From positions 62,001 to 126,000 of the forward strand of contig NZ_JAPNXS010000004.1 in assembly GCF_030397575.1 (NCBI RefSeq): a stretch of 64,000 bases of DNA, in the 5' to 3' direction. The stretch is from Psychromonas sp. 14N.309.X.WAT.B.A12 (GTDB lineage: Bacteria; Pseudomonadota; Gammaproteobacteria; Enterobacterales; Psychromonadaceae). This document shows, one piece after another, positions 6,072 to 11,968 of the stretch. A program made the translations under genes and the position numbers. Position 1 is the first letter of the stretch. Each line of letters starts with the position of its first letter. The notes below the pieces were generated by a model, which was given only the letters and a program-made list of their open reading frames with translations, did not search any database and was not told the origin of the DNA.

Positions 6072-6980
6072 TTACAAGCTTTGTTCGCCACCGAAAATTT
6101 CCACTAATGAAGGGACAAGTTGTTTTATCTCTCCGGTCATCAATATAAAGTCTGCATCAAAACGTGCTGCATAATCATCTGCTTCGATGTGTTCATTTTG
6201 TTCTTGCAATACGTCAGAGAATTTTAGGCGTTTTAGTGCAAACTCTTCTCCAATCACAAAGGAGATACTATCAGCCCAATTTAATGCTAGTTTAGTAACA
6301 AACTTATCTGAGTCTAAATGTTTTTTAATCTCATCCGACAGAAGATCCTGTTGCTTACAACGAATAATACCGCCGCCTTCCAAGGCTGAGCATAGTTCTG
6401 CTTCATCTTCTAGTTGGAAGTTTGCAGGAATATTGCCTTCAACTAACCAATCGGTCATTACAACATCCGTTTGGTTTTGTAATTGAACAGGAACCACTGG
6501 CAAACTACCTAAGGTTTTACGTAGTAGCGAAATAAGTTCTTCTGCTTTACGAGCACTCGAACAGTCAACATATAACATGTTGGTTTCATTATCTATCCAT
6601 GCGAAAGTTTGAGAGGTACGACTAAATGCGCGAGGCAGCAGTTGCATAATAATGTCTTCTTTCAAACTATCTTTTTCTTTTTTCTTTAATGCTCGACCTT
6701 GCTCTAACTCAATAGCTTCAACACGTTCATTCAATTGATCTTTAATGACGCCGGCTGGCAACATCTTTTCTTCTTTTTTAAGGCATATCAAAATTTGTTT
6801 TTGGTGAATGTGTGTGAACATGCTGCCATTTTTCCCCATTGGAAAAACCCAGCCTAGTTTTGAAATATCTTGGCTACCACAAGGTTTAAATTTAAATTCC
6901 TCTAGGTTTCTTTCTAGTGCGCTGTCGTCTTGTTCCATAGGACGAGTAAAACGATAAACTTGAAGGTTTTTAAAAAACAT
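6072..6980 (-). CDS. rdgC: Recombination-associated protein RdgC
   Basis: Ring-shaped double-stranded DNA-binding protein that limits RecA access to DNA. Start chosen at MFFKNLQVYRF, the conserved RdgC N terminus, with AAGGTG seven bases upstream; the frame is open 27 codons further but without a ribosome site. The resulting 302 residues match the family length (303 in E. coli). Visible family segments are GWVFPMG, LPRAFSRTSQTFAWID and LALNWADSISFVIGEEFALKRLKF. It is transcribed on its own, with a terminator after it. Confidence 0.95.
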   Translation of the reverse strand: MFFKNLQVYRFTRPMEQDDSALERNLEEFKFKPCGSQDISKLGWVFPMGKNGSMFTHIHQKQILICLKKEEKMLPAGVIKDQLNERVEAIELEQGRALKKKEKDSLKEDIIMQLLPRAFSRTSQTFAWIDNETNMLYVDCSSARKAEELISLLRKTLGSLPVVPVQLQNQTDVVMTDWLVEGNIPANFQLEDEAELCSALEGGGIIRCKQQDLLSDEIKKHLDSDKFVTKLALNWADSISFVIGEEFALKRLKFSDVLQEQNEHIEADDYAARFDADFILMTGEIKQLVPSLVEIFGGEQSL

Positions 6981-7345
6981 GAAATGCACCTTAATATGTA
7001 AGAGGTTAAATAGCCCTCGAGTGTAAATGATTTTATAACAAGCATCAAAACTTGCTTTCATGAGGTAACAAATATTTCATTATTGATTACCTATTTTGAT
7101 ATATTAATTTGGTTTTTATATATTATTTATGCCTATACTAGTGCAACAAGTTCTTTTTTATTTGGTAAATGATTAAACCTTACTCTTAGCTTCTCTTCGC
7201 GCCAGTTTAGAAAGTAAGTGGTTATTAATATGTCATAGAACAATTAAATGCATTATAAACTTAAATAAAATAGTGCTATCTTAACTGCATGATTTTATTT
7301 AGTTATTATCAGAGTTGTTATTTTATCAAGATACGGATTTTTTAT
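6981..7345. other. Divergent intergenic region between rdgC and the TonB receptor gene
   Basis: About 365 bases of very AT-rich DNA that must hold the promoters of rdgC (leftward) and of the receptor-YfiR-GGDEF operon (rightward). I see no convincing operator, riboswitch or hairpin in it. The plus-strand frame is open from 7289 but without a ribosome site at that position. Confidence 0.5.
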
Positions 7346-9361
7346 ATGGAAATTACTAAAGCAACTATCATGTCGAGTGTGAAACGTTATCAATATTTTT
7401 ATACTGTTTTATTCGCACTATCTAGTACTGCATTCATTACTCATCCCGCTTACGGGAAGTCAGAGGAATATAATGAAGCCGATGATTTACCGAGTTTAGA
7501 TTTTGATAGTCTAATGGCAGCGGATATTCAAGTGACGTCTGCCATGAAGCGTTTACAAAATAAATCTGACACTGCCGCTTCTATTTATGTACTTACTAAT
7601 CGAGAAATAATCCAATCAGGTGTTACTTCCGTTGCTCAAGCATTGACTTTAGTACCCGGTATGCAAGTGCGAAAATTAGATAATAACCAATGGGCTATTA
7701 CCACTAGAAGTACTGCGGGAAGACATTCTAGTAAATTATTGGTGATGATTGATGGTCAAAGCATTTATAACCCTGGTTTTGCAGGTGTGTATTGGGAAGC
7801 TATTAATGTTCCTCTGTATGATATAGAACGTATAGAGGTTATACGTGGTCAGGGAGGACTACTATGGGGAAGCAATGCGACCAATGGTGTGGTTAATATC
7901 ATTACTAAACATACCGCGGATACGCGCGATAATATAGTGCAATTGGCTACTGGCACAAAGCAAGATTATAAGGTCGATTTTAGAGTCGGTGGCGATTTAG
8001 TCAATTACAGTTCCTTTAGAATTTCTGGTGGTGTTGAGCAAACTGATGAGTCGAGTAAAAGCGAAAAGGACTTGTCTGCACATGATGATGGCAAAAAACA
8101 AAATCTAAATGGGCGAGTTGATTTTAATATTAATGATGATTTAAGTTTATTAGCGCAAGTTTGGTATAACAATATTGATATGGGGCAAAACTTAAGGTTA
8201 GCTGATGTTAATACGAATCTATCAAGTTATGTTTATGACCAATATACCCTCGATTATTTACAATTAATGACACGGTTAGATCACCGTATATCCCCTGTTT
8301 CAAATCAAATGCTACAGGTTTCCTTTAGCTCTCAACGCGGCGAACAAGCTTATTATAGAGATAAATTTTTAACCACAGACATTGATTACCAAATGAATAC
8401 GTTAATCAAACATACTCAGTTTGATTGGGGGGTAAACTATCGTTACAGCGATGTGTTTATTGAGGAGAACGATTTTTTTAGCAATCTCAGTAATCTCAAT
8501 CATTATGATCACTTTGGTGGATTCATCCAATTTCAATTTAATCTGGTTCCTGACAAATTTAAACTGATTATTGGTAACCGTTCAGAAAAAAATAGTTTCA
8601 CCGGGTGGGAGCATCAACCTATGGTTCGTTTTTTATGGACTCCTGAATCTCGTCATACTATTTGGGGAGCTGTTTCTCAGGGAGTACGTGTACCTTCATT
8701 TCTTGAATACAATAATATTGCTCGTGTTAATTCATCTTTAGGTATTAGAAGTGACATAATAGGTAATAATGATATTGATGCAGAAAAGTCATTCTCTAAA
8801 GAATTGGGGTATCGATACAGTGAAGATAACTGGGGAGTTGATATATCTCTATTCCATACGAAAGCACGTAATGTGTTGGTGATTGACCCAGACGTTAACG
8901 ATACCTTTACTTACATTACCTATAATTTTGTCTCCGATGGTGAGCTAACAACCTATGGTGGAGAAGCAACGTTAAATTGGAGTCCTAACCGTAAACTTAA
9001 TACTGAAATTGGCTATAGTTTAACTTCTTATCAATATGATCTGCCAGCAGGTACAACAGAAGCGATCGGTCATGATGCTTATATGCGTCAACTTATTGCA
9101 AAAGCCAATATTACTTTAACCGATAACCATCATTTGTCTTTAACTTATAGGATTGAAGATGGCGAGGCCTATGATACAAAAGATTACGCAGTATTAGATG
9201 CTAGCTGGCGATGGCAAATTAATGATACCGTTACTTTTTCATTAACGGGTAACAACTTGTTATATGGGAAACATATTGAATATGGTAATAGTAGTGAAGC
9301 TTATACGGTTGTCACTTTTATTGAGCCTAGTTATTTAGCTCAAATAACGGCAAAATTCTAG
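7346..9361 (+). CDS. TonB-dependent outer-membrane receptor
   Basis: Outer-membrane beta-barrel receptor driven by TonB-ExbBD. About 671 residues: a signal peptide ending near HPAYG, a TonB-box-like segment (DIQVTSA), a plug domain (NREIIQSGVTSVAQALTLVPGMQV, then LVMIDGQSIYNPGF, IERIEVIRGQGGLLWG and NATNGVVNIITK) and a 22-strand barrel ending in an aromatic-type C terminus (ITAKF). The start is uncertain: ATG 7346 has a weak CGGA 8 bases upstream, and ATG 7370 (MSSVKRYQYF) also gives a good signal peptide. The ligand cannot be told from sequence. It is followed 10 bp later by a YfiR-like gene and then a GGDEF-EAL gene, so it may act as a signal-sensing receptor rather than only as an importer. 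Confidence 0.92.
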   Translation: MEITKATIMSSVKRYQYFYTVLFALSSTAFITHPAYGKSEEYNEADDLPSLDFDSLMAADIQVTSAMKRLQNKSDTAASIYVLTNREIIQSGVTSVAQALTLVPGMQVRKLDNNQWAITTRSTAGRHSSKLLVMIDGQSIYNPGFAGVYWEAINVPLYDIERIEVIRGQGGLLWGSNATNGVVNIITKHTADTRDNIVQLATGTKQDYKVDFRVGGDLVNYSSFRISGGVEQTDESSKSEKDLSAHDDGKKQNLNGRVDFNINDDLSLLAQVWYNNIDMGQNLRLADVNTNLSSYVYDQYTLDYLQLMTRLDHRISPVSNQMLQVSFSSQRGEQAYYRDKFLTTDIDYQMNTLIKHTQFDWGVNYRYSDVFIEENDFFSNLSNLNHYDHFGGFIQFQFNLVPDKFKLIIGNRSEKNSFTGWEHQPMVRFLWTPESRHTIWGAVSQGVRVPSFLEYNNIARVNSSLGIRSDIIGNNDIDAEKSFSKELGYRYSEDNWGVDISLFHTKARNVLVIDPDVNDTFTYITYNFVSDGELTTYGGEATLNWSPNRKLNTEIGYSLTSYQYDLPAGTTEAIGHDAYMRQLIAKANITLTDNHHLSLTYRIEDGEAYDTKDYAVLDASWRWQINDTVTFSLTGNNLLYGKHIEYGNSSEAYTVVTFIEPSYLAQITAKF

Positions 9362-9371
9362 GTATATACCC

Positions 9372-9917
9372 ATGTTTATTTTACGTAAGACTAGTCTTAT
9401 ATTGATATCGCTATTACTTTTCCTTATATCAGGAAATACTATGGCGAACTCAAGAGAAGATGCTATAAAATCTGGTTTTATATACAATTTTGCGCGCTAT
9501 TCGCAAGGAAGCTGGTTTAACGCCAGTCAACAAAACAGTTACAACATTTGTAGCTTTAATCCTGACTTTATTGTTTCTGCAGCTAAAACATTGAAGGCGC
9601 TTTCTATAGAAAATCGGCCTGTTGAGTTAGTCCTGTTAACAAATGATAATCCAAGTCTGACTAACTGTAATACTCTATTCATATCAAAAGCAGATGCTGA
9701 TGTTTGGCATGCTATATCGAAAAATGAAGTGATATCTTCCTTAATGCTAGTAGGAGAATTTGATGGATTTTTATCTTCTGGAGGTCATATTAATTTTTTT
9801 ATAATTAGTGGCAAAGTCAGGTTTGAAGTATCACCAAGTCGATTAAGGAAATCCGGTATAAAAATGAGTTCTAAAGTGCTGCGTTTAGGTAGGATTTATC
9901 AAGGAGGAGAACAATGA
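9372..9917 (+). CDS. YfiR-like periplasmic regulator (DUF4154)
   Basis: Periplasmic protein of the YfiR/DUF4154 family, whose known member in Pseudomonas represses the membrane diguanylate cyclase YfiN (TpbB). 181 residues with a signal peptide (cleavage near GNTMA), the family opening AIKSGFIYNFARY, the GGHINFFIISGKVRFEVSPSRLRKSGIKMSSKVLRLGR C-terminal block in conserved order, and cysteines at 60 and 99, whose 39-residue spacing equals that of the C71-C110 disulfide of Pseudomonas YfiR. The stop overlaps the next gene's start by four bases (ATGA), so the two are probably co-translated. Its gene pair with a CHASE-like/GGDEF protein matches the yfiR-yfiN pairing. Confidence 0.88.
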   Translation: MFILRKTSLILISLLLFLISGNTMANSREDAIKSGFIYNFARYSQGSWFNASQQNSYNICSFNPDFIVSAAKTLKALSIENRPVELVLLTNDNPSLTNCNTLFISKADADVWHAISKNEVISSLMLVGEFDGFLSSGGHINFFIISGKVRFEVSPSRLRKSGIKMSSKVLRLGRIYQGGEQ

Positions 9918-11968
9918 TTTTTCCTCGCACTTTGACAGGATCTTTGAATGCTAAATTATTAATGATTTTAATGATGGTCGCATTATTTAGTAGTATGACT
10001 ATTGCTGCAATGTTTACTGTTTATGAGTTAAATTCAGTCACTAAAGCAGAAGAGTCAAAGTTAAATTCCATTGCCAAAATACTTGCCCCTAATCTTACCG
10101 CTACCCTTATATTCCAAGATGAAACAAGTGCTGCTGAACAATTAGAGTCATTATTAGGGCAAAGTAATATTGTCAGTGCCGCAATAATTGATAAAGATGG
10201 CGAGCAATTTGTAGGTGTGTCTACAGAAAAAAATAATCAGATAACGATTTTTAACAAATTGATGGTAAGTTCGACTCCTTTAATGATGAAAGGTGTTGAG
10301 TACGGCTTATTGACAATTAGTGCTGATTATTCAGTGATCGAACGTAGCTTACTGTTTTTCAGTTTCTTTTTACTGGCAATTTTAGCCTTAATTTTACTGC
10401 TCAGTTTTTTACTTTCTCTTTTCTTAAGAAAAATTCTTATTTATCCATTAACTCATTTAGCCAGTGTTGCAGAGCGTGTCACTAACACTAATAACTATAA
10501 TTTACGATCTAAAGTGTTATCCAGTGATGAAGTGGGTAATCTCGCTAACTGCTTTAACTCTATGCTAGAAACTATAAAACAGCGTGATAACTCATTGGAA
10601 GAAACAGTACAGCAAAGGACAAGTGCATTAGAAGTTGCTAATAATAAGTTAACCACTCAGGCTTTTAGTGACCCCTTATCCGGTTTACCGAATCGACGTT
10701 ATATTTTAGATAAATTAGCCAACTTAGTGAGCTGTTCCGAACAGCATGAATTTGCATTATTAGGTTTAGATTTAGATGGCTTCAAAGAGATTAATGACAC
10801 TATGGGGCACGATTATGGTGATTTACTGCTCATTGAAGTTAGTCGTTGTATTACACAGATTCTTGATAATGGATCCACATTAGCCCGTTTAGGTGGGGAT
10901 GAATTCCTGATTCTAGTAGAAGGAAATGTAAGTGAAGCAGGTTTAAGCTCTTTAGCAAATACCATTAACCAGGAACTTGCAAAAGGATTTTTGATTGAAG
11001 GTAAGCATGTATTTGTAACCACAAGTATTGGTATTGCGCTATTTCCTGTAGACGGTCAAAGTGTCGAGAACTTAATCAAATATGCTGATCTTGCTATGTA
11101 CAAATCTAAAGAAGCTGGACGTAATAGCCATCATTTTTTTGAGCAAAATATGCTTAATGCTGTTATTCAAAAACATCAACTAGTTGAGGATCTTCGTCAT
11201 AGCTTAGCCAATGAACATTTTGAGTTATATTACCAACCTATTGTTAACCTTTTAACTAATAAAATGTGCAAAGCGGAGGCCTTGATTCGCTGGAATCACC
11301 CTGAGCGAGGCTTGATTCCACCTAATGAGTTTATTGCGATAGCTGAAGAGGTGGGGTTAATATTAGAGATGGGTGAATGGGTTGCTCGTACGGCTGCTCG
11401 TGATCTCGCTCAGTTTAAAAAGTTAGGGGCTGCAGACGATTTTCAAATTAGTATTAATGTTTCTCCAGTACAGTTTAAAGGCGATGGTCAGTGGATTTTG
11501 GATTGGTTTAAATACACAGAAACATTAGGTTTACCACGTGATGCGATTATCATAGAAATTACTGAGAACTTATTAATGGAAAGCGAAGACTCAGTCCGAG
11601 CTCAGCTTACTAAGTTAAAAAAACGTGGTATTGCGATTGCGATTGATGATTTTGGTGTCGGTTACTCTTCATTATCTTATTTACAGAAAATGGATGTCGA
11701 TGTATTAAAAATAGATAAATCATTTGTTGATGAATTAGAAAATGAAAAAAATAGTCGTGAACTTTGCCAAGTGATTATTATGATGGCACACCATTTAGAT
11801 ATTCAAGTGGTTGCTGAAGGAATAGAGAATGCAGCCCAAAAGCAAATTTTAACCAATGCGGGTTGCGAGTTTGGACAGGGTTATCTATTTGCCAAACCAC
11901 TACCCATTGAAACCTTTAAAAGACAGTATTTTATCCATAGTTCACCTATAGATTTAAGTTTGATATAA
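9914..11968 (+). CDS. Membrane sensor with GGDEF and EAL domains (YfiN-like)
   Basis: Inner-membrane protein predicted to make and/or break cyclic di-GMP. The 684 residues comprise TM1 (about 15-38), a periplasmic sensor region (40-145) like the CHASE8 part of YfiN, TM2 (about 147-172), HAMP (173-225), a short coiled coil, GGDEF (about 255-415) and EAL (about 425-665). The synthase motif GGDEF (327-331) is intact. The inhibitory RxxD site five residues before it is absent (DNGS there). The phosphodiesterase motifs EAL (455-457), ITENLLM, DDFGVGYSSL and KIDKSFV are intact, so both activities are possible. It follows the YfiR-like gene with a four-base overlap, suggesting the YfiR-like protein controls it from the periplasm. 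Confidence 0.93.
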   Translation: MIFPRTLTGSLNAKLLMILMMVALFSSMTIAAMFTVYELNSVTKAEESKLNSIAKILAPNLTATLIFQDETSAAEQLESLLGQSNIVSAAIIDKDGEQFVGVSTEKNNQITIFNKLMVSSTPLMMKGVEYGLLTISADYSVIERSLLFFSFFLLAILALILLLSFLLSLFLRKILIYPLTHLASVAERVTNTNNYNLRSKVLSSDEVGNLANCFNSMLETIKQRDNSLEETVQQRTSALEVANNKLTTQAFSDPLSGLPNRRYILDKLANLVSCSEQHEFALLGLDLDGFKEINDTMGHDYGDLLLIEVSRCITQILDNGSTLARLGGDEFLILVEGNVSEAGLSSLANTINQELAKGFLIEGKHVFVTTSIGIALFPVDGQSVENLIKYADLAMYKSKEAGRNSHHFFEQNMLNAVIQKHQLVEDLRHSLANEHFELYYQPIVNLLTNKMCKAEALIRWNHPERGLIPPNEFIAIAEEVGLILEMGEWVARTAARDLAQFKKLGAADDFQISINVSPVQFKGDGQWILDWFKYTETLGLPRDAIIIEITENLLMESEDSVRAQLTKLKKRGIAIAIDDFGVGYSSLSYLQKMDVDVLKIDKSFVDELENEKNSRELCQVIIMMAHHLDIQVVAEGIENAAQKQILTNAGCEFGQGYLFAKPLPIETFKRQYFIHSSPIDLSLI

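Follow-up and report, generated by a model that had tools for sequence, protein, structure and literature searches.

A putative trans-envelope relay from a TonB-dependent receptor through a YfiR-like protein to a GGDEF-EAL protein in Psychromonas, with a candidate docking peptide at the receptor N-terminus

Can a TonB-dependent receptor take the place of the lipoprotein YfiB in YfiR signalling? The question is raised by three genes in a 64,000-nucleotide stretch of the genome of Psychromonas sp. 14N.309.X.WAT.B.A12 (contig NZ_JAPNXS010000004.1, positions 62,001 to 126,000; the window hereafter), which encode a TonB-dependent receptor, a YfiR-like periplasmic protein and an inner-membrane transmitter with GGDEF and EAL domains. 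In Pseudomonas aeruginosa, the YfiR surface held by the linker and domain of YfiB is conserved and overlaps with the site proposed for YfiN (PMC4887326, PMC4655355). According to Malone et al. 2012 (PMC3375315), divergent YfiN-YfiR systems are mostly without yfiB, their output being GGDEF-EAL, HPT or a kinase, with YfiR itself proposed as a possible input and no known outer-membrane input; the paper never mentions TonB, and the passages drawn on here leave the replacement of YfiB unnamed. A first-pass annotation had put the receptor in YfiB's place, an assignment that is now well supported by gene order, co-inheritance and a shared N-terminal peptide. The three genes probably (at a probability of about 0.7) encode a trans-envelope relay from the receptor to the YfiR-like protein to the GGDEF-EAL protein, in which the peptide would serve for docking.

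The three open reading frames lie on the same strand, with a 10-bp gap between the receptor and YfiR-like genes and a 4-bp overlap between the YfiR-like and GGDEF-EAL genes, the same tight order that was described at first annotation, and they form one operon. The genome has only two YfiR-family genes, each directly behind one of its eight plug-domain receptors, an outcome with a probability of ~6e-6 under random placement (assuming ~3300 genes). About 100 loci were fetched from matches in the order and class, and their domains were called with profiles built on the window trio and on a second trio in the same genome. Among the 105 YfiR loci surveyed, which include one near-duplicate pair (L003 and L059), a same-strand TonB receptor was found directly upstream in 55 and within two genes in 68. 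The placement figure and this survey together rule out chance adjacency of receptor and YfiR gene. CHASE8-type transmitters were present in 95 loci (43 kinases, 30 GGDEF-EAL and 22 GGDEF proteins). Five further loci encode YfiR-histidine kinase fusions (L063:6228-8129, L069:4958-6949, L070:5017-6987, L071:5969-7915 and L118:4409-7129), read as a YfiR domain followed by a long coiled coil, a membrane segment and the kinase; a TonB receptor adjoins four of the five, and these fusions tie the YfiR domain to inner-membrane transmitters. The trio order is conserved within the genus and also widely outside it, a point on which the first-pass annotation had made its proposal depend.

Within the genus, DUF4154 (PF13689, the family of the YfiR-like protein) is found in 11 of 24 genomes, in 16 copies. 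Twenty of the genomes have a phoB match. The GGDEF-EAL end of the trio adjoins phoB in eight of these, while in 12 rdgC directly adjoins phoB without any trio gene between; the fetched loci of the eight trio-bearing genomes place the trio between rdgC and phoB, the exception being a contig end in G003. The trio is therefore gained or lost as one block.

The partner label switches at least 19 times on the YfiR tree and the output label at least 13 times, because of which the parts seem to have been mixed repeatedly, the deep branches of this tree being weak. The window's YfiR-like protein falls in a clade of 16 loci (starred in the tree), all with a TonB receptor and a GGDEF or GGDEF-EAL output, separate from a long branch of YfiRs with an OmpA-type gene nearby (L038, L041, L052). 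The receptor tree places the window in the same clade, except for L074, where the receptor is cut by a contig end. The agreement of the two trees on the window's companions is one reason for reading the locus as a relay.

A short N-terminal peptide sets the YfiR-linked receptors apart. The window receptor has DDLPSLDFDSLMAADIQVTS in its N-terminal part, and in the conserved segment listed in Table 1 it matches the receptor of locus L003 at 26 of 26 residues, compared with 9 of 31 just before the segment. Sixty-four full-length receptors encoded near YfiR align here with the consensus D-L-x-x-L-S-L-E-E-L-M-x-I-E-V-T-S, running into the Ton-box position; one leucine is kept in 63 of them, and 57 fit the core pattern. 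Only two of the eight plug-domain receptors in the window's own genome carry the peptide, namely the pair linked to YfiR; the six unlinked receptors are without it.

The same peptide was found on an unrelated barrel. In four YfiR loci that have no TonB receptor, its place directly upstream of the YfiR gene is taken by a Phenol_MetA_deg-like barrel of ~350 residues (L031:5427-6497, L034:7191-8243, L054:6748-7803 and L078:1027-2070), with neither plug nor Ton box. Only the L034 barrel passes the Phenol_MetA_deg cut-off, the other three being its homologues. Their mature N-termini read ADLSLQELF, ADLSLQDLY, AELSFQDLL or AEFSLQELF, the peptide of L031 being LSLQELF. Seven further, distant members of this family were found in 198 genomes of the order, with no YfiR or CHASE8 gene in their fetched flanks, and the six whose N-terminus could be read begin quite differently (RPDSHAPIxxMGDHTH-like) and do not carry the peptide. 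Presence in four of four YfiR-linked against none of six unlinked barrels (p 0.005, the four being kin) is the strongest hint that the peptide accompanies partnership with YfiR and does not extend the Ton box.

Co-occurrence was followed in whole genomes with profile A1, which spans 41 positions of the N-terminal segment. Matches were counted if they started within the first seven positions with E up to 1e-4; those starting later contain plug only and were used as an internal control. A1 was found in 10 of 11 DUF4154-positive and 0 of 13 negative genomes of the genus, in 47/57 versus 2/312 at class level (Fisher p 6e-47) and in 59/84 versus 3/265 at phylum level (p 1e-42), with p values that ignore shared descent and samples that overlap. 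Within the phylum sample, 64 of 82 A1 receptor matches had a DUF4154 gene no more than 6 kb away, and most others were on contigs without a DUF4154 match. Genomes G624, G800, G803, G421 and G444 have an A1-type receptor without a DUF4154 match; the receptor may be an orphan partner there, the YfiR gene may have been missed, or the match may be weak and due to chance.

The YfiR-like protein scores well above the PF13689 cut-off of 24.9 and reaches 28.6 bits with the curated YfiR model NF053586 (cut-off 85), compared with 179 for the L041 YfiR, which has an OmpA-type neighbour. Its Cys60 and Cys99 are the counterparts of C71/C110 in P. aeruginosa YfiR (PaYfiR), while the PaYfiR C145/C152 pair has no counterpart. 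The C-terminal stretch matching the PaYfiR surface contacted by YfiB is retained (RFEV..P.RLRKSGIKMSSKVLRLGR). The closest named relative fetched is from Psychromonas sp. B3M02, with a YfiR-like protein that is 67% identical. Sequence searches of the PDB returned only YfiR (E 0.73) for this protein and nothing useful for the periplasmic part of the transmitter. The first helix of YfiB (KFTPEQITAM in L041) was likened to the receptor peptide, a likeness that is not claimed because most of the helix is unseen in the YfiR-bound crystal and other residues make the contacts (PMC4887326).

In the proposed relay, the outer-membrane receptor would bind a ligand, and its short N-terminal periplasmic tail (LDFDSLM, beside the Ton box) would dock on the YfiR-like protein depending on the state of the receptor, with ligand binding altering the availability of the tail as for the Ton box. 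The tail would compete with CHASE8 for the C-terminal surface of the YfiR-like protein, so that the amount of this protein on the CHASE8 domain of the GGDEF-EAL protein would shift and cyclic di-GMP (c-di-GMP) would change; the receptor would then have the role of YfiB in YfiBNR. A ligand may in this way free the YfiR-like repressor, as suggested at first annotation. Such a relay, kept across proteobacteria, probably passes an outer-membrane signal to a c-di-GMP enzyme. The LSLEELM-type peptide is read as a YfiR-docking tag. Its generalisation is more tentative, at slightly less than even odds: a portable tag of ~7 residues of the L-S-L-E-E-L-M type on mature barrel N-termini may dock YfiR, turning unrelated barrels into sensors of a modular YfiR-CHASE8 relay with diguanylate cyclase, GGDEF-EAL or histidine kinase output.

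Several observations weigh against this interpretation. No TonB receptor lies within two genes in 37 of the 105 YfiR loci; some of these have YfiB, four have the other barrel, two have a receptor with the motif further off, and the rest have no visible partner. The peptide is short and amphipathic, and a loose version of its pattern also matched 8 of 1092 other open reading frames, two of which are the YfiR-linked barrels themselves. The linked receptors group together in their tree, and common ancestry could account for the peptide in part; the barrel case is a single family and probably one event. An AlphaFold model of the YfiR-like protein, made from a two-row alignment, was dropped at a mean predicted local distance difference test (pLDDT) score of 43.

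The receptor might instead only import its ligand to the periplasm, where the YfiR-like protein would bind it, and the conserved segment would then be an extended Ton box. PaYfiR crystals do bind vitamin B6 and tryptophan, the nearest folds are ligand-binding domains (PMC4887326), and the Phenol_MetA_deg-type barrel could also be a transport channel. Uptake followed by periplasmic sensing is nevertheless unlikely, given that a barrel with no plug and no Ton box has the peptide when linked to YfiR and its unlinked homologues do not, and that the genome's own unlinked TonB receptors also do without it. Alternatively, the receptor might be merely co-transcribed and the YfiR-like protein might by itself sense redox state or envelope stress on behalf of the GGDEF-EAL protein, which is what Malone et al. 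proposed for YfiB-less systems. Retention of the C71/C110-type pair in both the window clade and the YfiB-type clade would suit such a sensor, as would the reported periplasmic redox control of YfiR (PMC3375315); the idea is quite improbable in view of the joint gain and loss of receptor and YfiR-like gene, their pairing over great divergence and the missing second disulphide pair, which is needed for folding in P. aeruginosa.

At the output end of the favoured receptor-to-YfiR relay, the transmitter passes the Pfam cut-offs for CHASE8 (44.6 bits), HAMP (26.1), GGDEF (141.6) and EAL (249.6). Both catalytic sites are intact at sequence level, the EAL residues being found in EALIRW, IEITEN, IDDFGVGY, LKIDKSFV and AEGIE, and the inhibitory RxxD site is replaced, in agreement with the first-pass description. 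RxxD is missing in all Psychromonas orthologues sampled and retained in the sister loci L037, L040, L046, L051 and L056 and in the GGDEF-only loci L043, L044 and L048, so that its loss most likely took place on the Psychromonas branch. The first-pass reading has to be tempered as regards output: the EAL domain is intact, and the protein could on balance degrade c-di-GMP as well as make it.

Table 1. Features of the receptor, YfiR-like and GGDEF-EAL locus, in window coordinates.
Feature	Position	Strand	Basis
TonB-dependent receptor gene	7346..9361	+	Pfam Plug and barrel; best NCBIfam model NF053590 TOL_0244; 80% identity to L003
Conserved segment DDLPSLDFDSLMAADIQVTSAMKRLQ, behind the signal peptide and extending into the Ton-box position	7481..7558	+	Identity to L003; profile A1 co-occurrence
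Core peptide LDFDSLM (consensus L-S-[LF]-E-E-L-M), proposed YfiR-docking tag	7496..7516	+	Linked receptors and unrelated YfiR-linked barrels
YfiR/HmsC-like periplasmic protein, 181 aa	9372..9917	+	PF13689, 97.5 bits
Inner-membrane transmitter CHASE8-HAMP-GGDEF-EAL, 684 aa	9914..11968	+	Pfam
Inhibitory RxxD position, here DNGS, 5 residues ahead of GGDEF	10865..10876	+	Sequence
GGDEF catalytic motif	10892..10906	+	Sequence
EAL catalytic motif	11276..11284	+	Sequence

The receptor passes the Pfam cut-offs for plug (66.9 bits) and barrel (103.6 bits). Besides the ATG at 7346, in-frame starts are available at 7289 and 7370, and the last of these (MSSVKRYQYF..) is likely the true one, because the signal peptide then stands at the extreme N-terminus. 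A divergent rdgC gene lies upstream of the receptor and phoB-phoR downstream of the GGDEF-EAL gene. No Rfam family passed its gathering score in the window or 11 related loci, so there is no cobalamin or c-di-GMP riboswitch clue to the ligand. Nor did the region ahead of the receptor gene, whether in the window, in six relatives or in the second trio, show a Fur-box-like site above shuffled background, and no upstream element was clearly conserved among the relatives.

The second trio of the genome (L004:5025-12557; G000:C1, about 495-502.6 kb, with the YfiR-like gene at C1:497 kb) has a hybrid histidine kinase of the CHASE8 type, containing two receiver domains, after its TonB receptor and YfiR-like protein; a REC-GGDEF-EAL gene comes next. 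Elsewhere, transmitters of 640-693 aa with an SGDEF or AGDEF motif stand beside YfiR (L055:4034-6007, L057, L062, L064, L065 and L077); two that were scanned with Pfam are CHASE8-HAMP-PAS-GGDEF proteins without EAL. In L110, the YfiR gene (6258-6803) is followed by a transmitter in which a single chain of 1664 aa has a kinase, GGDEF, EAL and three receiver domains.

In the open literature, searched by titles, abstracts and term counts with subscription papers outside the search, no paper joins YfiR and TonB in a receptor-relay sense, and no report of the shared peptide was found. If the proposed relay is correct, many proteobacteria would sense a surface ligand by a TonB receptor with c-di-GMP or phosphorelay output, and a seven-residue peptide would allow such sensors to be found by sequence and, in principle, signalling receptors to be predicted apart from transport-only ones. 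With a portable tag, the route would also be distinct from the STN/anti-sigma route of outer-membrane signalling.

Transducing TonB receptors of the FecA/FpvA type use an N-terminal periplasmic extension for signalling. The window receptor likewise has such an extension, but as a short peptide and not a folded domain: Pfam finds plug and barrel only, with no STN domain, and no anti-sigma or sigma factor gene is among the immediate neighbours. The YfiBNR/HmsCDE systems of P. aeruginosa, E. coli and Y. pestis are alike in that a YfiR-family protein is encoded with a GGDEF-bearing CHASE8 transmitter and has an outer-membrane partner. They differ in that the partner is the OmpA-type lipoprotein YfiB and the output GGDEF only, in contrast to a TonB-dependent receptor and a GGDEF-EAL protein without RxxD, and the window's YfiR-like protein is without the second disulphide pair, falls under the curated YfiR cut-off and sits on another tree branch. 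The trios of NCBIfam (NF053590-NF053592: TOL_0244 receptor, TOL_0243 YfiR-like protein and YfiR-associated histidine kinase) have the same three kinds of gene and supply the best curated models for the window's receptor and YfiR-like protein; the window's transmitter is matched in its N-terminal part by the kinase model. All three window proteins nonetheless score under the cut-offs (370/645, 75/125 and 116/194), as do those of the second trio (533/645, 104/125 and 151/194), and the third gene of the window encodes a GGDEF-EAL protein and not a kinase, which is found in the second trio. The divergent systems of Malone et al. 2012 (PMC3375315) have the same YfiR-YfiN core, a GGDEF-EAL or histidine kinase output and no YfiB, with the difference that YfiB's place is taken here by a receptor or by another barrel that has the shared peptide. 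The gene order put forward at first annotation is borne out; arrangements of its kind, however, have names in NCBIfam already and were described in part in 2012.

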